A stretch of DNA of 64,000 bases from Alphaproteobacteria bacterium (lineage in GTDB: Bacteria; Pseudomonadota; Alphaproteobacteria; Caulobacterales; Parvularculaceae), in contig WGLT01000003.1 of NCBI GenBank assembly GCA_016125425.1, positions 1 through 64,000 of the forward strand, given 5' to 3'. This document shows, in pieces, positions 1,855 through 11,490 of this stretch. Numbering within the stretch: the first letter of the stretch is position 1; each line of letters begins with the position of its first letter. The translations under genes were made by a program, and so were the position numbers. The notes beneath the pieces were generated by a model that saw only the letters and a list, made by a program, of their open reading frames with translations, did not search any database and was not told the origin of the DNA.

Positions 1855-2844
1855 TCAGGCGAGAACGACGGCCGCGCGCGCGGCGAGCCAATAGGCCGAC
1901 AGAACGCCGATCGCATAGCCGGCCGCGCGCTCGGGCGAGAGCGGCAGGCGCGCCGCCGCGCCAGGCGCTGCGCGTCTTGCGAGCGTCACCGCCGCGAAGA
2001 TCGCAGCGATGATGATCAGCTGTCCGGCCTCGACGCCGACATTGAAAAAGAACAGCGCCGGCGCGCGCTCCGTTTGCGGAAGGCCAATCTCGCGCAAGGC
2101 CGCGGCGAAGCCGGCGCCGTGCAGGAGGCCGAAGGTCGAGGCGACGAGAACGGGCCGGCGCCAGGCGAGCGTCGTCCTGTCGCCGCGCGCGATCTCGGCT
2201 GCGACGAAGACGATCGACAGCGCGATCAGCGTTTCGACGACCGGCACGGAGACGCGCGCCAGATCAAGCGCGACCAGCGCGAGAGTCAGCGAATGGGCGA
2301 GGGTGAATCCGGTCGCCGTGACGAGAACCCGCCCCGGCGTGCGCGCGAGCACGATCAGCCCCGCAAGAAACAGGATGTGGTCTACGCCCGTCAGAATGTG
2401 TTTGACGCCAAGGATGAAGTAGCTCTTCGAAACGCCGGCGAATGTCTCGCGCGCCGGCGCCCGCCAGCTTGTCGTCGACGGATCGAGAACTTCGGTCGAG
2501 ACCTCGCCCGATCTCCAGGCGACGCGAACGAGAGTCGCAAGAGAGGGATTGAAATACGGCCATTCAATCGTGAGCTCTGCGTCTTTCAATCCGTTGTCGC
2601 AGGCGTAGATCGCGCGCCCGCGCAGGGGATCGTCCGCGCCGGCGGGCGCGATCGCCCGGCAGGGCGCGCCGAGCGCGAGCCGGGGCGCGTTCTCGGGCGC
2701 GACCGATCCCGGCGCATGCCAGGACAGCGCGAAGCGGTTCTGTGCGATTTCGCGAATTTCGACCGCAAGCGGGCGCGCGTCATGCGCATGCGCGGCCCCG
2801 GCGGCGAGAAGCGTAAAAAGGATGATCAGAAAGCGGAGGGTCAT
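1855..2844 (-). CDS. HupE/UreJ-like membrane protein
   Basis: A 329-residue protein begins with a signal peptide ending AAGAAHAH. A periplasmic domain of about 110 residues follows, then about six to seven membrane helices. Helix-borne polar residues match HupE/UreJ_2 proteins: GVKHILTGVDHILF (H149, D155, H156), TLAHS (H184), LLHGAGFA (H242) and FFNVGVEAGQ (N268, E272). HupE and UreJ are nickel permeases or metal-delivery proteins of hydrogenase and urease clusters, but no such enzyme is present here. It is the last gene of a three-gene minus-strand unit and overlaps the PPIase stop by ATGA. Metal transport is inferred from the family; the actual substrate is unknown. Confidence 0.85.
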   Translation of the reverse strand: MTLRFLIILFTLLAAGAAHAHDARPLAVEIREIAQNRFALSWHAPGSVAPENAPRLALGAPCRAIAPAGADDPLRGRAIYACDNGLKDAELTIEWPYFNPSLATLVRVAWRSGEVSTEVLDPSTTSWRAPARETFAGVSKSYFILGVKHILTGVDHILFLAGLIVLARTPGRVLVTATGFTLAHSLTLALVALDLARVSVPVVETLIALSIVFVAAEIARGDRTTLAWRRPVLVASTFGLLHGAGFAAALREIGLPQTERAPALFFFNVGVEAGQLIIIAAIFAAVTLARRAAPGAAARLPLSPERAAGYAIGVLSAYWLAARAAVVLA

Positions 2845-3758
2845 TTCGCTCCCGCCGCTTTCGCCGGCGCCTCTTCGCTCGTCGGGCTCAGGTCGAGAAC
2901 GACCTTATAGCGCTTGACAAGATCGGCGACGATGCGCGCCTCGGCCGCCTGTTCGTTAGCGCGCTGCGCATCCGCCGCGACCTGGCGTCTGACCTCTGCG
3001 AGCGCCGGATACCGGCCCGGCGTCACTTTGGAGACGAAAACCGCATGCGCGCCATAGGGCGACACAACAGGCGCGCGCCAGACTTTGAAAGGCCCCGCGG
3101 GATCGAAGATCGCCTTCGCCGCGTCCGCGCCGAATTGCGATTCGACATAGTCATAGGTGCGTTCGACGTAATTGACGTCGAAGGGGAAGCGCTCGCCTTC
3201 GCCGACCGCGGCTTCGAAGGGGGCCTTTCGGGCGTTGAGCTTGGCCGCCTCCGATTCCGCCGCGCTTCGCGCCGCCTCGGCGCCCCGGTTCGTCTTGGAA
3301 AAGAAGACATGCGTGAATGTGACGGACGGCTGGATATAGTAGTCTTTCCTGTGCGCCTTGAAATAGGCCGCGACTTCTTCGTCGCTCGGCGCGATATCCG
3401 AAACGGCGTTCTGCGCGAGAAAGTCGAATTTCTGGATCAGGCGCTGCTTAATGACATAGTCGCTCGCCTCAAGCCCCATGGATTTCGCTTCGCGGTAGAT
3501 CGCCTCTTCGCGCACATAGTCGTCGATCAGGTCTTTTCGCTGCGCCGGCGACATCGAATCGAAAAGCGCGGCGGCCGTCGACGGTTCGAAGGCTTTCGAA
3601 CGGTACTGGATGAATTCGAGCAGGGCCGGGCGGTCAACGACAATTTGCTTTTCGTCCTGCGGCGGCGGCTTCAAAGCCGAGCCGATGAAAAAGAGGACTG
3701 CGCCGATGACAAGGAAATGCGTCAGCGGGTCTTTGAGGATGGGCTTGATAGCGGCCAT
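2841..3758 (-). CDS. Parvulin-type peptidylprolyl isomerase, membrane-anchored
   Basis: A 305-residue protein has an N-terminal hydrophobic segment (FLVIGAVLFFIGSAL, about residues 14-28) that would anchor it, facing the periplasm. A SurA/PpiD-like helical region follows, and then a C-terminal PpiC/Rotamase_2-like domain (about residues 140-285, including FTHVFFSK and VVSPYGAHAVFVSKV). The start at 3758 lies 8 nt after the DUF3604 stop, without a strong ribosome-binding site, so translation is probably coupled. Its position between a secreted hydrolase and a HupE-like protein suggests a chaperone dedicated to one of them, which is inference. Confidence 0.85.
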   Translation of the reverse strand: MAAIKPILKDPLTHFLVIGAVLFFIGSALKPPPQDEKQIVVDRPALLEFIQYRSKAFEPSTAAALFDSMSPAQRKDLIDDYVREEAIYREAKSMGLEASDYVIKQRLIQKFDFLAQNAVSDIAPSDEEVAAYFKAHRKDYYIQPSVTFTHVFFSKTNRGAEAARSAAESEAAKLNARKAPFEAAVGEGERFPFDVNYVERTYDYVESQFGADAAKAIFDPAGPFKVWRAPVVSPYGAHAVFVSKVTPGRYPALAEVRRQVAADAQRANEQAAEARIVADLVKRYKVVLDLSPTSEEAPAKAAGAK

Positions 3759-3766
3759 CGGGGAGC

Positions 3767-5710
3767 TTACGGCGTATACCAGATCGGCGAGGAATAGGCG
3801 CGTTCCTGTATGGAGGTCGGCAGGCCTTCGGGCGGCGCCTCGCCCAGCGCGACCGAGTCGTAAAGCGAGTTCCGCGGCGTGGGAATTTCGAGTACGCGCA
3901 CGTAATAAAAGGCGCGCTGGTCGGGGTTGAATTCCGGATCCTTCCAGACCGTCGTGAGTTCGGCTTCGCCGATCGTGTTCGTATAAGAGGCCGTCTTGAC
4001 ATCGACCGTATCGCCGACGGGCGGCAGACGACCATTGGCGTCGACGGCGCGATCCCCGCTCCACGCGACATTAAAGACCTTTTCCTGCGCTTTTCCGTCC
4101 GGGCCGATCCAGCCCTTGACCACCTGCACGCGGTCGAGATTGGCGCTCATCGGATCCTTCACCGCGCGAATGAGGAAAGACGGCGCCGCGCCGCCTTGCG
4201 CGCGCGTGAGGTCGCCGCCCATTGGAACGCCCTTGGCGTATCCGACCGCTGCGATGTCGCGCGCGCCGGCGTCGTCAGGCGTGAAGGCGAAGCCGCCGAA
4301 AAAGCGCAATCTGATGTGCGGCCCCGTCGTTCCGTAGACTTCGCGGCGCTTGAACGCGTCGAAGATCGCCTGACGGGTGTTCTCTCGCGCCCACACGGCG
4401 GCGAGTCCGGAGGCGGATATTTGCCATGTCTTCACGCCGACGTCTTTGAAGCCGATCTCGCGATTGGCGGGCGCGCCATCCGGCGGCATCGCCCCGTAGA
4501 AATTGTTCTCTTCCGTGCTCGACAATGCGGTGTGGGAGTCCGTCGCGCCGATCATGCCGAGCTTGAACGGATTGACGCCGAGACTCGATTCGAGCTCGAG
4601 TCCGGTTTTCAATGCGCTTCTGACATAATCGGCGGGCGTCACCGTCGGCGCGTGCTGCGCATGCGTGCGGGCGTCGATGAGCCGGTTGAAGAATTCAAAA
4701 TCTGCAAACTCGTCATTCGGCGAAAGCTCAGGGCGCGTTTCGGAAGTTCCCTTGGTCTGCGTGACTTCGGCGACAGTCTCCCATTCGGCGCGGAGCTTGG
4801 CGATCTCCGGCGTCAGCGGTTTGCCCTCATAATCGACGGTTGCGAACATGCGGCCTTTCGAGAGATTGGAATTGTGCGGGATCGCAACGAAATCGGCGCC
4901 CGTCTCCTGCTTCGTCTTCTCCAGCCATCGCCAGAGATCTTCCGGATTCGGGCTGTCGACCGCGGAAAAGGGAAGGAATTTCCTGGCGACGTCTCCGCCG
5001 GCTGGCGTGAAGACGCAGCGATGCAGGTTCGCGCCGTCGGGCGTCGAGGAATATTCCCAGCCAATGAAAGTCGTGAATTTTCCAGGTTCGTTGTTGCGCT
5101 CGGCGGCGTCGATATTCGATTCCCAGCTTGTGCGAATGACGTCGGGCTGGTTGAGGTCGCCGATCAGGGTGGGATCGCCGGCAAGCCATTCATTGGCCTG
5201 TTCGCGCGCATCGGGAACCGAGACGAGCGCCATGAACCGCCATTTGAGGGCCTTCAATAATCCGACCTTGGGCGGACGGCCGTTCGAATCCTGGAGGCCG
5301 GTTTGATTGATGGCGAGGATGAACAGACCGAACGCATCCTCTCCGCGACCTGAATTTGCGAGTTCGATCAGCTTTCTGCCGAGCCGGGTATGCGTCAGCC
5401 TTTCATCGCCCACTGTCAGAAGTCGATAAGGGACGCCAAGCAATTCGGCGTGATCGGTAACCGCAAGAAAGTCGAGCGGCTCGCGAAGCTGCGCGCGCGC
5501 ATGCGTGTACGGATGGATGACGGGTTCGCCCTTGGCGAAACGATAGGCGGTGTCGGCATCGGCCGTTCGATTTCCGAGGAAATAGGCGTCGACCGACAGA
5601 TTCGTGTGCAGATGCGTATCACCCCACAAAAGCTTGTCGGGATAGTTCTCGGCGTGAACCGGCGCGACGGCCAGCGCTGCGACGAACGCGGCGGCGAAAG
5701 TGCGTATCAT
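3767..5710 (-). CDS. DUF3604 family secreted PHP-like metallohydrolase
   Basis: A 647-residue protein has a signal peptide (MIRTFAAAFVAALAVAPVHA). It carries the full set of PHP-like metal-ligand motifs: WGDTHLHTN (H33, H35), FLAVTDHAE (D86, H87), E219 in IGWEYSS, AIPHNSN (H279), and GATDSHT (D391, H393). This fits the DUF3604 family, whose substrate is not established. A phosphoesterase-type metal-dependent reaction in the periplasm is the reasonable inference. It is the first gene of the DUF3604-PPIase-HupE unit; GGGGGGAGA sits just before the ATG at 5710. Confidence 0.88.
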   Translation of the reverse strand: MIRTFAAAFVAALAVAPVHAENYPDKLLWGDTHLHTNLSVDAYFLGNRTADADTAYRFAKGEPVIHPYTHARAQLREPLDFLAVTDHAELLGVPYRLLTVGDERLTHTRLGRKLIELANSGRGEDAFGLFILAINQTGLQDSNGRPPKVGLLKALKWRFMALVSVPDAREQANEWLAGDPTLIGDLNQPDVIRTSWESNIDAAERNNEPGKFTTFIGWEYSSTPDGANLHRCVFTPAGGDVARKFLPFSAVDSPNPEDLWRWLEKTKQETGADFVAIPHNSNLSKGRMFATVDYEGKPLTPEIAKLRAEWETVAEVTQTKGTSETRPELSPNDEFADFEFFNRLIDARTHAQHAPTVTPADYVRSALKTGLELESSLGVNPFKLGMIGATDSHTALSSTEENNFYGAMPPDGAPANREIGFKDVGVKTWQISASGLAAVWARENTRQAIFDAFKRREVYGTTGPHIRLRFFGGFAFTPDDAGARDIAAVGYAKGVPMGGDLTRAQGGAAPSFLIRAVKDPMSANLDRVQVVKGWIGPDGKAQEKVFNVAWSGDRAVDANGRLPPVGDTVDVKTASYTNTIGEAELTTVWKDPEFNPDQRAFYYVRVLEIPTPRNSLYDSVALGEAPPEGLPTSIQERAYSSPIWYTP

Positions 5711-5740: not shown

Positions 5741-7168
5741 TCAGCCGGCCGGTCGAAGGACGGCTTTGGTTTCGAGAAACTCTTCGAGGCCCATCGCGCC
5801 CCATTCGCGCCCATTGCCCGATTGCTTGTAGCCTCCAAAGGGCGCGTTGAGGTTTCCTCCCGCGCCGTTCAGGCTGATCTGTCCGGCGCGGATGCGGCCG
5901 CCGACCCTGCGCGCGTGTTCGATATCGCCGGAATAGACGTAGCCGGCGAGACCGTAATCGGTGTCGTTGGCGATGCGGATTGCGTCTTCTTCATCCTTGT
6001 AGGGAAGAATCGACAGCACGGGGCCGAATATCTCCTCGCGCGCGATCGTCATGTCGTTCGAGACGCGGCCGAAAACCGTGGGCTTCGCATAATAGCCGCG
6101 ATTGAGGCCTTCGGGGCGTCCGGTTCCGCCGCAGGCGAGAACGGCGCCCTCTTGGACGCCTTTCTCGATCAGGGCCTGCACCTTGTTCCATTGCGCTTCG
6201 CTCGACAGCGGTCCCATCTGCGTGCCGGGGTCTTTGGGATCGCCGACGCGGATCGCCGAGGCGACGGCCGAAGCGATCGCCATCGCCTTGTCCATCGCGT
6301 CAGCGGGCACGAGCATGCGCGACGGGGCGTTACAGCTCTGCCCCGTATTGCTCATCATCGAGCGCACGCCTGATCTCACCGCTCTTTCAAGATCGGCGTC
6401 CGGCAGAATAATGTTGGCGGATTTGCCGCCCAGCTCTTGCGCGACGCGTTTGACTGTCGGCGCGGCGTTCCGCGCGACCTCTATGCCGGCCCGCGTCGAG
6501 CCGGTGAAGGACACCATGTCGACCTGCGGATGCGAAGACATGGCCGCGCCGACTTCCGGACCAAGGCCGTCCACAAGATTGAAGACGCCTTTCGGAACGC
6601 CGGCGGCGTGGAGTATCTCCGCTATGATGTGGCCCGAAACCGGCGCGATCTCGGACGGTTTGAGCACCATCGCGCAGCCCGCGCCGAGCGCCGGCGCGAC
6701 CTTGCAGGCGATCTGGTTCGCCGGCCAGTTCCATGGCGTAATGAGCGCGCAGACCCCGACCGGTTCGCGCACGAGTTCGAAGCCGACGCGCTCCTCGACG
6801 AAATCGAAATTGCGGAGGACCGCGATCATCGTCTGGAAGTGTCCGACGCCCGAAGCGGCCTGCGCCTCGAGCGCGAGTTTCATGGGCGCGCCCATTTCGT
6901 CGGAAATCGCCTCGGCCAGTTCCTGAAAGCGCGCCATATATTGTTCGACGATCCGCTCGAGGAGGGCGATGCGATCCTTCCGGCTCGTGGCCGCGAAGGA
7001 ATCGAATGCGCGGCGCGCCGCCGTCACGGCCCGGTCGACATCGGCGTTCGTTCCGAGAGCAATGGTCGCGAAGGCCTCCTCGGTCGCGGGATTGATGACA
7101 TCCAGCGTCCGAGCGCCGGATGGCGCGACCCATTCGCCGTCGATGTAGAATTTTTTGAGGTCGCGCAT
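5741..7168 (-). CDS. NAD(P)-dependent aldehyde dehydrogenase
   Basis: A 475-residue aldehyde dehydrogenase superfamily protein of normal length. Visible motifs: PWNWP (N147), FTGSTRAG for the cofactor loop, general base E245 in QELGGK, and catalytic C279 in NTGQSCNAPS. The substrate cannot be read from the sequence. It lies 30 bp upstream of DUF3604 on the same strand and divergent from the alkylsulfatase. It might oxidise a fatty aldehyde formed after alkyl-sulfate cleavage, but that is a context guess only. The ATG at 7168 has a GGAGAG ribosome-binding site. Confidence 0.93.
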   Translation of the reverse strand: MRDLKKFYIDGEWVAPSGARTLDVINPATEEAFATIALGTNADVDRAVTAARRAFDSFAATSRKDRIALLERIVEQYMARFQELAEAISDEMGAPMKLALEAQAASGVGHFQTMIAVLRNFDFVEERVGFELVREPVGVCALITPWNWPANQIACKVAPALGAGCAMVLKPSEIAPVSGHIIAEILHAAGVPKGVFNLVDGLGPEVGAAMSSHPQVDMVSFTGSTRAGIEVARNAAPTVKRVAQELGGKSANIILPDADLERAVRSGVRSMMSNTGQSCNAPSRMLVPADAMDKAMAIASAVASAIRVGDPKDPGTQMGPLSSEAQWNKVQALIEKGVQEGAVLACGGTGRPEGLNRGYYAKPTVFGRVSNDMTIAREEIFGPVLSILPYKDEEDAIRIANDTDYGLAGYVYSGDIEHARRVGGRIRAGQISLNGAGGNLNAPFGGYKQSGNGREWGAMGLEEFLETKAVLRPAG

Positions 7169-7327
7169 CGTCGCTCTCCGTCCAAATCCGACCGTTTAAA
7201 TAACCTGTTGCGGCCGGTGAGGGAAAGCGTCAGGCGCAGTCATAGCGGGCGCGGCGCCGCGATGTGGACGCAGCGTGCGCGGCGCCTATACCTTGGCGCC
7301 GAAAGCCGGACGGAAAGGGGGCTTTTC

Positions 7328-9328
7328 ATGCGCCCGTCATTCATCGCCGCCGCGATTGCGGCGCTTTGTCTCAATGCTTGCGGAGAGCAGGCGCGCACGA
7401 ACGCGCCGTCCGGCGACGCCGCTGCGCCCGCCTTCTCATTGCCGACGCCGGGAGCGGCGACCGAGGCGACGAAGAAGAAGAACGCCGCCTTCGCGAAAGA
7501 ACTGCCTCTGGGCGACAGCCAGGATTTCGAGGACGCAAGGCGCGGATTTCTCGGGGCGATCGACGGCGGCGTGATCAAGAATGAGAACGGCGAGGTCGTC
7601 TGGAGCCAGTCGGATTTCGATTTCCTGAAAGGTCCCGCGCCGGCGACTGTTAATCCCTCGCTCTGGCGACAGGCGCAGCTGAACGCCATTCACGGCCTGT
7701 TTGAAGTGACCGACGGCGTCTACCAGCTGCGCGGCTACGATCTATCCGTGATGACCCTGATCAGAGGCGAGACCGGCTGGATCGTGGTCGATCCCCTGTT
7801 GTCGAAAGAAACGTCGCGCGCCGCGCTGGCGCTCGCCAATGAGAAACTCGGCGCCCGCCCCGTGAAGGCGGTCATATTCACGCACAGCCATGTCGATCAC
7901 TTTGGCGGCGCGCGTGGAGTCGTCTCTGACGACGATGTGGCGTCCGGACGTGTCCGGATTATCGCGCCGGACGGATTCGCCGAGGCGGCGATCGGCGAAA
8001 ATGTGCTCGCCGGAAACGCAATGGCGCGCCGCGCGGCCTTCCAGTTCGGCGCAAATATCCTCCCCGGCCCGTCGGGCCTCGTCGATTCAGGGATCGGAAA
8101 GACGATCTCCAAAGGGGTTGTCGGCTTTATGAAGCCGACCGAGACCGTGAAACACACTGGCGAACGTAAAATAATCGACGGCGTCGAATTTGAATTCGTC
8201 ATGGCGCCCGACACGGAGGCGCCGGCGGAGATATTGTTCTATCTGCCGCAAAAGAAGGCGCTCTGCGTCGCCGAGCTCGCGACGACGACGGATCACAATC
8301 TTCTCACACTGCGCGGCGCGAAAGTGCGCGATGCGCTCGCATGGAGCCGCGCTCTCGATACGGCGCTCGAAATGTTCGGAGACGACGCGCAGGTTCTCTT
8401 CGCTTCGCACAACTGGCCGGTCTGGGGGAATGACCGCGTAAGACGGCGTCTTGAACATCATCGCGATCTCTATCGCTACATTCATGACCAGACGCTGCGG
8501 CTCGCAAATGAAGGCTACGCCATGAATGAAATCGCGGACATGATCGGCGCGCCCGATTTCTTGAAGGCGGACTTTTCAACGCACGGCTATTACGGCGCGA
8601 TCGCCCACAATGCGCGCGCGACCTATCAGCGTTATTTCGGCTGGTGGGACGGCGTGCCCGCTCATCTGGATCCCTTGCCGCCCGAAGAAGAGGCCAGACA
8701 CTATGTCGAACTCGCCGGCGGCGCGGACAAGATGATCGAGAATGCGGAGACTGCCTTCAACAAGGGCGAGTATCGGTGGGTTGCGACGATCATGAATCAG
8801 CTCGTCTTCGCCGAACCGAATAACCGACGGGCGAAAAACCTTCTCGCCGCGGCGTATGAGCAACTCGGTTTCCAGACGGAAAGCGCAATCTGGCGCAATT
8901 ATTATCTTCAGGGCGCCAAGGAGCTGCGCGACGGGGTCGACAAGTCAGGGCGAAGCGACCTCGCCAATCCGGATTTCGTCAAAGCGATCCCGACGCCGGA
9001 TTATTTTGATGCGCTTGCGGTCCGCTTCAATCCGAAGAAAATGAGCGGATCCTTGACGATCAATTTCGAGTTTTCCGACACCGGAGAGAAAATCGGCGTC
9101 AAGATCGCGGACGGCGTCGAAGAGCAGAAAACGGGCGGTTATAAAGACGCCACGGCGACCGTGAAGACGAGCCGCGCCGATCTCGACGACATCACGCTCG
9201 GCCGGGCGACTTTCCAGGGCGAACTCGCCAAGGGGCGGATCAAGGTCGAAGGAAATCCGGTCGATTTTGGACAATATCTTCTCGCGCATGACAAGTTCGA
9301 TCGCTGGTTCAATGTGGTGACGCCTTAG
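7328..9328 (+). CDS. SdsA1-like alkylsulfatase (metallo-beta-lactamase fold)
   Basis: A 666-residue protein of the type III linear alkylsulfatase family, which releases sulfate from primary alkyl sulfates such as SDS. The N-terminus is a lipoprotein signal with lipobox LNAC (C18). The metallo-beta-lactamase zinc motif is THSHVDH (H186, H188, D190, H191). The family dimerisation segment and a C-terminal SCP2-like domain (from about residue 540) follow. The family is about 650 residues, so it is full length. The start ATG at 7328 is chosen because it begins the signal peptide; the open frame extends far upstream as a shadow. Its TAG stop shares one base with the GTG of the TonB receptor gene, so the two are co-translated. 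Confidence 0.93.
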   Translation: MRPSFIAAAIAALCLNACGEQARTNAPSGDAAAPAFSLPTPGAATEATKKKNAAFAKELPLGDSQDFEDARRGFLGAIDGGVIKNENGEVVWSQSDFDFLKGPAPATVNPSLWRQAQLNAIHGLFEVTDGVYQLRGYDLSVMTLIRGETGWIVVDPLLSKETSRAALALANEKLGARPVKAVIFTHSHVDHFGGARGVVSDDDVASGRVRIIAPDGFAEAAIGENVLAGNAMARRAAFQFGANILPGPSGLVDSGIGKTISKGVVGFMKPTETVKHTGERKIIDGVEFEFVMAPDTEAPAEILFYLPQKKALCVAELATTTDHNLLTLRGAKVRDALAWSRALDTALEMFGDDAQVLFASHNWPVWGNDRVRRRLEHHRDLYRYIHDQTLRLANEGYAMNEIADMIGAPDFLKADFSTHGYYGAIAHNARATYQRYFGWWDGVPAHLDPLPPEEEARHYVELAGGADKMIENAETAFNKGEYRWVATIMNQLVFAEPNNRRAKNLLAAAYEQLGFQTESAIWRNYYLQGAKELRDGVDKSGRSDLANPDFVKAIPTPDYFDALAVRFNPKKMSGSLTINFEFSDTGEKIGVKIADGVEEQKTGGYKDATATVKTSRADLDDITLGRATFQGELAKGRIKVEGNPVDFGQYLLAHDKFDRWFNVVTP

Positions 9329-11490
9329 TGAGCGTGCGAACCGAAATCGCCGCTTGTCGACGGGACGCGCCTGGCGGCTCAAGGGCTGGCGTTTCTTGCG
9401 TCGCGGCTTTGCGTTTGGAACGCCGCCGTTTCTGCTCGATCATAGCGAAGCGCAAAATCCGCTCTCTTCAAGGGCGTGCGGCGGCCGGCGCGCTGTTCGC
9501 ATTTTGGTTCGCGCATCCCGCCTGCGCGCATGATGAAATCATCGTCACGGCCGAGAGGCGGGCGCAATCGGCGCTTGATGTTCCGGCCAGCGTGTCGTCG
9601 GTCGACGGGGCCGAACTCCGCCGCATCAACGCCGATCACCCGAGCGAGATTCTAAATCGCGTCCCGGGCGTGCTCATTCATCGCGGCAGCGGCGTCGAAT
9701 ATCTGACCGCCATTCGCTCGCCCGTGCTGACGGGCGGGGCGGGGGCGGGCGATTTTCTCTTTCTTCAGGACGGCGTGCCGCTGCGCTCGGCGGGGTTCGC
9801 CAACGTCAACGAACTCTTCGAGGCGCAAACCGAACTCGCCGCGCGCATGGAAGTCGCGCGCGGGCCGAGCGGCGCGCTCTATGGCGCAAACGCCATTCAC
9901 GGCGTCGTCAATGTCGTCACGCCGGCGGCGAGCGAAAATCTCACCGGCTATCTCGATATTTCGGGCGATACGACGGCCCGCTTTAAAGGATCGGGGCTGG
10001 TCTCAAACGCCTTTGGCGCGCATGGCCTGCTCGCCGGTTTCGCCGCCGAGTCCGAGCATGGGTATCGCGCCAATTCCGGCGCGGATCAACAGAAGATCTT
10101 ATTGCGCGACGACTGGACGCCGGGCGGCGCATGGACGGTTTCGACGATCTTTTCCGGCGTCAATCTCAATCAGGAAACCGCGGGCTATGTCGTCGGGCAT
10201 GACGCTTATAAAGACCCGGCGCTCAGAAGGGCCAATCCGAATCCGGAGGCGTATCGGGACGCGCGATCCGGACGCATCCAGAGCGACGTCAATTATCAGC
10301 CTAACGATAATCTGCTCGTTTCCGTGACGCCTTTTGCGCGCTGGACGCAAATGCGCTTCCTTATGCATTTCGTTCCGGGCGAAGCGACGGAGGAAAACAG
10401 CCACTGGAGCCTCGGCGCGCAATCGGCCGTTTACTGGAGGGCGTCGGACCGCGCCGAGATCATCGCCGGCTTTGACTGGGAGCATACGAAGGGCGACCTG
10501 ACGGAGATTCAGGCGCAGCCGACTGTTTTTTCCTACACGCAGGGCGTTCATTACGATTATTCAGTCGGCGCATGGTCGGCTTCGCCTTTTCTGCAACTGA
10601 CGTATCGACTTGCGCCGCGTCTTAAAGCCGTCATCGCGGGCCGGCTCGACTACACGCGCTACGATTATGTCAACCACACAAGCGACGGGGTCGTTGGCCG
10701 ATTCCTGCGGCCGGCGGACCGCATCGACCAGTTCGCGACCGCGAGTCCCAAGGCGAGCCTTCTTTATCAGCTGAAGCGCTCGTCCGTTTATCTCTCCTAT
10801 GCGCGCGGAGCGCGCCCGCCGCAGACGACGGATTTATACCGTCTACAGATCAACCAGACGACGAACCCGGCCGAACCTGAGACGATCGACTCATGGGAGG
10901 CGGGCTGGAAAGGCGCGATCAGCGAAGGCGTGAGCGTCAATCTCGCCGGCTATTTTATGGCGAAGCGCCATTTCTTCTTTCGCGCCGCCGACGGCTACAA
11001 TGTTTCCGACGGCAAGACCCGGCATGTCGGCGCGGAGGCGTCTCTTACGGCGCGCGTGACCGACGCTTTGACGCTTTACGCTGATGCGAGCTACGGCAGG
11101 CATACCTATCGCTTCGACCGACCGACGCTTTCCTTGCCGCAGGCGAGCGAGTCGATCCGTTTCGGCGACACGGTGGATACCGCGCCGCGCTGGCTCGCCG
11201 GCGGGCGGGCGCTTTGGACGTCGAAATCCGCGCCCCTTACAGCCGAGCTGGAATGGCGCTTTGTCGACAAATACTTCATGGACGCGGCCAACACCGAAGT
11301 CTATCCGGGCTATCACCTTGTAAACTTTCGCGGCGCCTGGCGTGTCTCGAAGCATTTGACCGCGACCGCGACCATCCGCAATTTGCTGAACGTCTATTAC
11401 GCCGAGCGGGCCGACTATGCCTTCGGGACCGAACGCTATTTTCCCGGCGAGCCGCGCGAACTGACGATCGGGTTTAGGGCGACGATATGA
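9328..11490 (+). CDS. TonB-dependent outer-membrane receptor
   Basis: The protein is up to 720 residues. It has a hydrophobic secretion segment (AAAGALFAFWFAHPACA), a TonB-box-like sequence after cleavage (DEIIVTAERR), a plug domain (about residues 85-200, with EVARGPSGALYGANAIHGVVNV), and a 22-strand-type barrel ending in aromatic-rich strands (GFRATI). The start is uncertain: the GTG at 9328 overlaps the alkylsulfatase stop but leaves about 45 residues before the signal segment, and TTG codons at 9409 or 9415 are alternatives. Overlap with the alkylsulfatase suggests uptake of alkyl sulfates or related amphiphiles; siderophore uptake is the default alternative. Confidence 0.9.
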   Translation: MSVRTEIAACRRDAPGGSRAGVSCVAALRLERRRFCSIIAKRKIRSLQGRAAAGALFAFWFAHPACAHDEIIVTAERRAQSALDVPASVSSVDGAELRRINADHPSEILNRVPGVLIHRGSGVEYLTAIRSPVLTGGAGAGDFLFLQDGVPLRSAGFANVNELFEAQTELAARMEVARGPSGALYGANAIHGVVNVVTPAASENLTGYLDISGDTTARFKGSGLVSNAFGAHGLLAGFAAESEHGYRANSGADQQKILLRDDWTPGGAWTVSTIFSGVNLNQETAGYVVGHDAYKDPALRRANPNPEAYRDARSGRIQSDVNYQPNDNLLVSVTPFARWTQMRFLMHFVPGEATEENSHWSLGAQSAVYWRASDRAEIIAGFDWEHTKGDLTEIQAQPTVFSYTQGVHYDYSVGAWSASPFLQLTYRLAPRLKAVIAGRLDYTRYDYVNHTSDGVVGRFLRPADRIDQFATASPKASLLYQLKRSSVYLSYARGARPPQTTDLYRLQINQTTNPAEPETIDSWEAGWKGAISEGVSVNLAGYFMAKRHFFFRAADGYNVSDGKTRHVGAEASLTARVTDALTLYADASYGRHTYRFDRPTLSLPQASESIRFGDTVDTAPRWLAGGRALWTSKSAPLTAELEWRFVDKYFMDAANTEVYPGYHLVNFRGAWRVSKHLTATATIRNLLNVYYAERADYAFGTERYFPGEPRELTIGFRATI

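Follow-up and report, generated by a model that had tools for sequence, protein, structure and literature searches.

Three adjacent minus-strand genes at positions 1855-5710 of a 64,000-nucleotide stretch of alphaproteobacterial DNA (contig WGLT01000003.1, family Parvularculaceae; hereafter, the window) encode a DUF3604 protein, a parvulin-type peptidyl-prolyl isomerase (PPIase) and a HupE/UreJ-2 membrane protein. DUF3604, parvulin and HupE form a real unit, conserved widely across phyla, and the balance of evidence tips slightly towards this trio being devoted to the export and maturation of a periplasmic metalloenzyme from the PHP family. The DUF3604 and parvulin genes are separated by 8 bp (3759-3766) and the parvulin and HupE genes overlap by 4 bp (2841-2844), an arrangement that a preliminary description of the locus had given correctly. 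Each part belongs to a known family; the three-part combination is new, and we found no description of it among the open-access PMC papers that our searches listed.

Linkage of the three genes was examined in two samples. For the first, peptide patterns taken from the window protein picked out 372 matches in GTDB genomes, and the best 80 DUF3604 loci were kept, a choice biased to close relatives. Half of them (40/80) hold a parvulin within their flanks. At all 40 parvulin-holding loci a HupE-type gene lies directly downstream of the parvulin on the same strand (39 canonical, and one variant at locus L102; L and G numbers denote loci and genomes), and at 32 of the 40 DUF3604 lies directly upstream on the same strand. 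Among the 40, going by record titles, are members of the Alpha-, Gamma- and Deltaproteobacteria, genera of the Bacteroidota and a planctomycete.

The second sample comprised 240 genomes of the host's class, the window's own genome among them. A general Rotamase_2 search matched 237 of the 240, which made it useless for linkage, and it was replaced by a subfamily profile from parvulin alignment A3 (40 rows, the window protein and 39 of 40 others). A parvulin locus counted as strong from 136 bits upwards, no further match exceeding 89 bits, and two pieces on one contig (G007:C324) were merged. Of the 28 strong loci, 27 adjoin a HupE gene in the same orientation and 25 lie within 3 kb of DUF3604; this parvulin subfamily in the class sits almost only beside HupE. 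DUF3604 matches were kept above 170 bits, with split matches merged at G123:C17 and G150:C3. Genomes with weak matches only (16 of 41, mostly with frames of 746-831 aa) and smaller fragments (for example G007:C562 and G202:C133) were dropped from the count, and G124 was counted despite being a 123-residue contig-end piece. Both genes then occur in 22 genomes, DUF3604 only in three, parvulin only in one and neither in 214 (Fisher 7e-27, uncorrected for kinship). Two of the three DUF3604-only cases are contig-end pieces, and the parvulin-only genome, G187, has weak DUF3604 matches. The possibility, raised in the preliminary description, that the three genes do not co-occur beyond chance is strongly refuted by these figures.

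Association also holds within lineages and across copies. Nine families have sampled members that differ in either gene; read by hand, six differ in both (f6, f15, f25, f42, f52, f96), and in f69, f93 and f126 DUF3604 and parvulin do not change together. Genomes whose DUF3604 locus shows no trio in its flanks mostly carry the trio elsewhere: among 39 such genomes, 36 have a strong parvulin match, 29 an adjacent parvulin–HupE pair and 38 some HupE/UreJ-2 match. The class sample holds at least 57 DUF3604 copies, 28 of them near a parvulin, against 28 parvulin loci. A single parvulin–HupE pair accompanies at least five DUF3604 copies in G091 and at least four in G009 and G143, all copy numbers being lower bounds from the best five DUF3604 and best nine parvulin candidates scored per genome. 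Among 44 units of the window's type, each with a DUF3604 gene no more than 3.5 kb away (a further unit was dropped for its truncated HupE), divergence is correlated between DUF3604 and parvulin (r 0.63), DUF3604 and HupE (0.53) and parvulin and HupE (0.75); none of 2000 permutations reaches the observed r, in a comparison that does not control for the species tree. A fourth constant gene was sought among the neighbours of the 80 DUF3604 loci and none was found. The commonest other clusters were a sulfatase (11/80), an aldehyde dehydrogenase (9/80) and a TonB receptor (7/80), counts lowered by crude gene picking, which found DUF3604 itself in 77 loci and parvulin in 36 (window included).

A second, diverged trio of a PHP-like protein, a parvulin and a HupE protein occurs at seven loci (Table 1). 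When complete, its PHP-like proteins have 741-774 aa; their similarity to DUF3604 is weak in the two scanned (98 bits at L181, 82 bits at L183), and three of four scanned give sub-cut-off CehA/McbA matches. The HupE proteins have about 400-440 aa when complete, and in 7/7 the probable cleavage site, placed by eye, carries a His. For all 21 parts (seven units, three proteins) the nearest relative among the compared units is another second-type unit, and therefore the trio probably diverged as a set. The comparison left out lone HupE proteins, and second-type units were sorted by a parvulin score below 100 bits, which makes the parvulin separation partly one of construction. The HupE separation is looser, a first-type unit ranking third for L183, fifth for L185 and sixth for L189. 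Both kinds of trio occur in one genome in G123, G150, G227 and G238, among others.

The DUF3604 protein carries a Sec-type signal peptide, MIRTFAAAFVAALAVAPVHA (read by eye), followed by a PHP-like domain (~25-464) and a C-terminal beta-sandwich (~465-647). Its AlphaFold model has a predicted local distance difference test score (pLDDT) of 90.7. Against the PDB, the aligner VIA matched this model to 2anu (Z 16.5; 202 aligned, 3.1 Å) and 3e38 (Z 16.4; 231 aligned, 3.6 Å); the next PHP row was RNase AM (7ug9, Z 8.9), and PolIII alpha (4iqj), matched over its PHP portion, reached just Z 7.0. Foldseek gave no match at E <= 0.001 for the DUF3604 or HupE model, so that VIA, the second aligner, alone gave matches. 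A PDB sequence search with DUF3604 returned two chance rows (E 0.4), and its profile returned none. The arrangement HxH ... DH ... E ... H ... DxH is the pattern of PHP proteins, and the metal-binding residues are predicted from PHP motifs. In alignment A1 (65 rows, the window protein and 64 of 111 within the length range), H33, H35, D86, H87, H279, D391 and H393 are invariant in 65/65; D41, E219 and H230, absent from the earlier list, are equally invariant. DUF3604 thus looks like a PHP-fold protein with a complete, invariant predicted metal site, much as the preliminary description had proposed. Membership of the CehA/McbA family (NCBIfam NF038032) was rejected, since the score of 22.3 bits falls short of the 80-bit cut-off.

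The parvulin begins with a hydrophobic helix, by eye a membrane anchor, bearing the motif KDPLTHFL (family consensus KEPLxHFL). Its profile matches the PDB relatives PEB4 (3rfw), HP0175, SurA and PrsA. The window protein has both active-site His residues, H150 and H238, presumably the catalytic pair. In A3 the second is His in 40/40, and the first is His in 26/40 and Gln in 14/40. From this substitution, action as an isomerase is doubtful for part of the family, and the Gln-bearing members are likely to be chaperones that lack isomerase activity. In G007:C324 (L162, 1871-2790) the parvulin gene is split over two frames and adjoins HupE, with no DUF3604 seen nearby.

The HupE protein has a signal peptide that ends, by eye, at AHA|HDARP, so that the mature protein begins with His. 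A periplasmic beta-sandwich of some 110 residues (~22-130) precedes the membrane domain (~135-328), which carries H149-x5-D155-H156 together with H184 and H242. We take H-x5-DH to be the metal motif of HupE/UreJ permeases. In alignment A2 (41 rows, the window protein and 40 of 45 picked by length, HupE variants left out), H149, D155, H156, H184, H242, N268 and E272 are invariant, and the conserved His, Asp and Asn noted earlier are borne out across all 41 rows. Mature residue 1 is His in 30/41 and Asp in 11/41. The structure model has a pLDDT of 92. Its N-terminal domain resembles ZrgA (Z 9.2) and PA4063 (Z 8.3); the likeness of this beta-sandwich to Ang-1 (9gce) is modest, at Z 7.1 (98 residues, 3.3 Å, 8% identity). 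The top VIA row, a chloroplast TOC-TIC chain (7vcf, Z 10.4), lies over the helices and was taken to reflect a common helical arrangement. The HupE profile gave one match among PDB sequences, at E = 1.

The two-domain architecture of this HupE protein, a periplasmic domain joined to PF13795, is that of the anglerases, named in 2025 by Franco Cairo and colleagues (Nat Commun, PMC12537917). In that article, an Ang-1 domain is reported to bind Cu and Ni with dissociation constants of 74 and 220 nM, the model put forward is metal capture for uptake into the cytoplasm and not supply of the periplasm, and frequent Ang-1 neighbours are DUF4198, indigoidine A-like and PfkB proteins and proteins of unknown function. 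The terms DUF3604, prolyl and PPIase are all absent from its main text.

HupE and UreJ are known to supply nickel to hydrogenase and urease. A search of the window's genome (96.9% complete) gave 0 matches to hydrogenase PF00374 and urease PF00449, which extends the earlier remark on their absence genome-wide for these families, and HupE service to either enzyme was rejected here. Nickel itself is not supported, the closest studied relatives binding copper more tightly than nickel (Ang-1) or zinc (ZrgA, PA4063).

In the reading we favour, DUF3604 would be exported by Sec and would fold outside the cytoplasm. The membrane-tethered parvulin would hold the unfolded chain at the membrane, and the anglerase-type HupE, working at the periplasmic face, would handle a transition metal and help to load the PHP metal site. 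Candidate metals for DUF3604 are Zn, Mn/Fe, Cu or Ni, and a single parvulin–HupE pair could serve several DUF3604 paralogues within a genome. The preliminary description had cast HupE as the metal supplier and the PPIase as the folding factor of DUF3604. For the supplier role, the periplasmic domain is of a metal-binding type (PMC12537917) and speaks in its favour, and five variant partners with a changed or missing motif speak against it. For the folding role, a chaperone fits better than an isomerase, whose activity the change of His to Gln in 14/40 makes doubtful in part. A broader and more tentative possibility is that the trio represents an unrecognised class of maturation systems, in which DUF3604 and the second PHP-like family (741-774 aa) would each have their own parvulin and an anglerase-HupE handing over metal during periplasmic folding.

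Several observations weigh against maturation by metal loading. Metal taken up as in the anglerase model (PMC12537917) would not reach a periplasmic enzyme directly. Mature residue 1 of HupE is Asp instead of His in 11/41 proteins, and the first catalytic His of parvulin is replaced by Gln as described above. The HupE-like partners at L102, L206, L207 and L209 lack H-x5-DH, the H-x6-H pair and the HG motif; they come from Bacteroidota (Christiangramia, Robertkochia), have 707-717 aa, keep many membrane helices and carry a long C-terminal part. The partner at L202, from a Gemmatimonadota metagenome-assembled genome, has V for the D of H-x5-DH. In four of the five variant genomes (L102, L108, L109, L117) DUF3604 keeps every ligand, so that an intact permease site is not required everywhere; in these lineages either metal arrives by a different route or the membrane partner has a task other than passing metal. 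Incomplete units weigh in the same direction. A DUF3604–parvulin pair has no adjoining HupE at L215 (646-3432; G174), where the next gene encodes a P450 on the opposite strand, or at L210 (253-4799), where an aldehyde dehydrogenase follows. By profile search, the parvulins at L203, L205, L211 and L213 have neither DUF3604 nor HupE alongside, and that at L208 adjoins a DUF3604 piece with no HupE alongside. G052 has DUF3604 and no parvulin or HupE match, and the second kind of trio is incomplete at L195 (PHP and parvulin, no HupE) and L188 (parvulin and HupE, no PHP). Taken with the HupE variants, the Asp and Gln substitutions weaken the part of the proposal in which HupE supplies metal and the PPIase isomerises, and leave that of dedicated helpers unaffected.

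In a survey of parvulin pieces down to 108 bits, 16 of 51 had no HupE match near, and 15 of the 16 (all but the second G267:C115 piece) were inspected. L201, L204, L212 and L218 are cut short by the end of their contig, L203, L205, L208, L211 and L213 are HupE-less by profile, and L202, L206, L207 and L209 hold the variants. At L210 and, cut, at L214 (3085-4909) an aldehyde dehydrogenase follows the parvulin in place of HupE. In the L215 genome, the HupE match sits in a second-type trio on the same contig, about 20 kb off.

The HupE variants speak for a scaffold, in which a membrane assembly of the parvulin and the HupE-type protein would fold, anchor or dock DUF3604 and the permease site would serve another purpose or be dispensable. 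Partners without H-x5-DH still stand directly after the parvulin at L102, L206, L207 and L209, and the parvulin has chaperone relatives. The beta-sandwich region aligns even in the variants, and although training of the HupE profile included L102, L108 and L115, which makes scores on Christiangramia variants partly circular, L209 and L202 lay outside it. Against this, H149, D155, H156, H184 and H242 are invariant in 41 canonical proteins, which means that most lineages hold the site under strong selection, and we regard a scaffold as unlikely. The same variants, lacking a membrane site, count against a role in metal acquisition, in which DUF3604 would cleave a periplasmic organic compound, the beta-sandwich would capture a metal released or present there and HupE would import it, with parvulin folding the parts. 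Such a role would suit the resemblance of the HupE N-terminal domain to ZrgA and PA4063, the TonB-dependent receptor in the window, and the capture-for-uptake proposal for anglerases (PMC12537917). However, the largest TonB-receptor cluster reaches 7/80 loci, none near the trio (diverse receptors may split over clusters), and several DUF3604 paralogues per pair resemble many clients rather than one uptake route. Mainly because several DUF3604 copies share one pair, we prefer maturation to metal uptake, which we hold to be distinctly unlikely.

It is also conceivable, and in our judgement very unlikely, that the genes travel together through a common lifestyle or operon alone and do not act on each other. 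In favour of this, gene content around DUF3604 otherwise varies, with catabolic genes (sulfatase, aldehyde dehydrogenase, acyl-CoA enzymes) among the neighbours. Yet gene order is kept in several phyla, two parallel trios exist, and linkage at the genome level is near-obligate.

Upstream of the trio, a same-strand aldehyde dehydrogenase gene stops 30 bp short of DUF3604, so the operon may exceed three genes, and this is possibly its first gene; elsewhere it is a non-constant neighbour, one cluster occurring in 9/80 related loci. From the gene order at L210 and L214 and this upstream gene, DUF3604 and aldehyde dehydrogenase may act on one substrate. Positions 5741-11490, with the aldehyde dehydrogenase, a divergent alkyl-sulfatase-like metallo-beta-lactamase and the TonB receptor, are possibly a single catabolic region. 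On the other side of the trio, a small protein at 1419-1829 is convergent with the HupE gene and has a sub-threshold DUF6491 match (24.5 against 27.5 bits). HupE/UreJ-2 genes also occur in other settings: at L159 (424-3714) one whose product has an N-terminal His immediately precedes a same-strand copper amine oxidase gene, at L149 one follows a DUF4331 gene, and at L157 one precedes a CorA gene.

Table 1. Genes of the window, variant HupE-like genes and second-type trios, with coordinates within each locus.
Feature	Locus	Coordinates	Strand	Details
DUF3604 gene	window	3767..5710	minus	647 aa; PF12228 757.6 bits (cut-off 20.4)
Parvulin gene	window	2841..3758	minus	305 aa from ATG at 3758; PF13145 Rotamase_2 46.3 bits (cut-off 27)
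HupE/UreJ-2 gene	window	1855..2844	minus	329 aa; PF13795 HupE_UreJ_2 143 bits (cut-off 24.5)
Aldehyde dehydrogenase gene	window	5741..7168	minus	PF00171 520 bits; 30 bp upstream of DUF3604
Alkyl-sulfatase-like metallo-beta-lactamase	window		plus	beyond aldehyde dehydrogenase
TonB-dependent receptor	window	9460-11490	plus	beyond aldehyde dehydrogenase
Variant HupE-like beside parvulin	L102	2770-4893		beta-sandwich kept, H-x5-DH missing
Variant HupE-like beside parvulin	L206	4429-6555		beta-sandwich kept, H-x5-DH missing
Variant HupE-like beside parvulin	L207	4435-6561		beta-sandwich kept, H-x5-DH missing
Variant HupE-like beside parvulin	L209	4218-6371		beta-sandwich kept, H-x5-DH missing
Milder HupE variant	L202	2253-4361		702 aa; Gemmatimonadota metagenome-assembled genome; upstream of parvulin; both His and AHG kept, V for D
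Second trio	L181	3506-7927		PHP-like, parvulin, HupE
Second trio	L182	2010-6314		PHP-like, parvulin, HupE
Second trio	L183	4091-8800		PHP-like, parvulin, HupE; divergent
Second trio	L184	3866-8388		PHP-like, parvulin, HupE
Second trio	L185	2-3226		PHP-like, parvulin, HupE; cut at contig end
Second trio	L186	2975-6780		PHP-like, parvulin, HupE; cut at contig end
Second trio	L189	4341-8701		PHP-like, parvulin, HupE

How the correct metal is loaded into periplasmic metalloenzymes is largely open, and the trio offers a direct and simple test system. It would give the anglerase-type HupE a concrete partner enzyme and the scarcely mentioned DUF3604 family a starting point for function; by name, the family turned up in a single paper of the open-access PMC literature searched, in one row of a Chlamydia table. 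If the broader maturation class is real, the anglerase domain would be a metallochaperone of periplasmic enzymes and not solely an uptake bait.

Each component can be set beside a known system. The trio parvulin shares a sequence profile with the chaperones SurA, PrsA, PEB4 and HP0175 and differs from them in its conserved KEPLxHFL helix, its linkage to a HupE gene and the Gln in 14/40. DUF3604 shares a predicted PHP fold with TM0559 (2anu) and BVU_3505 (3e38); unlike them it is exported, has about 650 aa and ends in a beta-sandwich. Its likeness to CehA/McbA, of the carbaryl hydrolase type, is weak and lies around the first ligand motifs. The HupE N-terminal domain has its fold in common with the zinc-binding proteins ZrgA of V. 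cholerae and PA4063 of P. aeruginosa, which, unlike the trio HupE, stand alone and are not known to carry a HupE membrane domain. With Ang-1-HupE/UreJ-2 (PMC12537917), the trio HupE shares a signal peptide, an N-terminal His after cleavage and the PF13795 membrane domain, and perhaps the kind of its periplasmic beta-sandwich, whose likeness to 9gce is modest. In that article, anglerases have His1 in 100%, whereas the trio HupE family has Asp1 in 11/41. The membrane site predicted for MmAng-2a in the same source, His194/His201/His229, has the spacing (7, 28) of H149/H156/H184 in the window.

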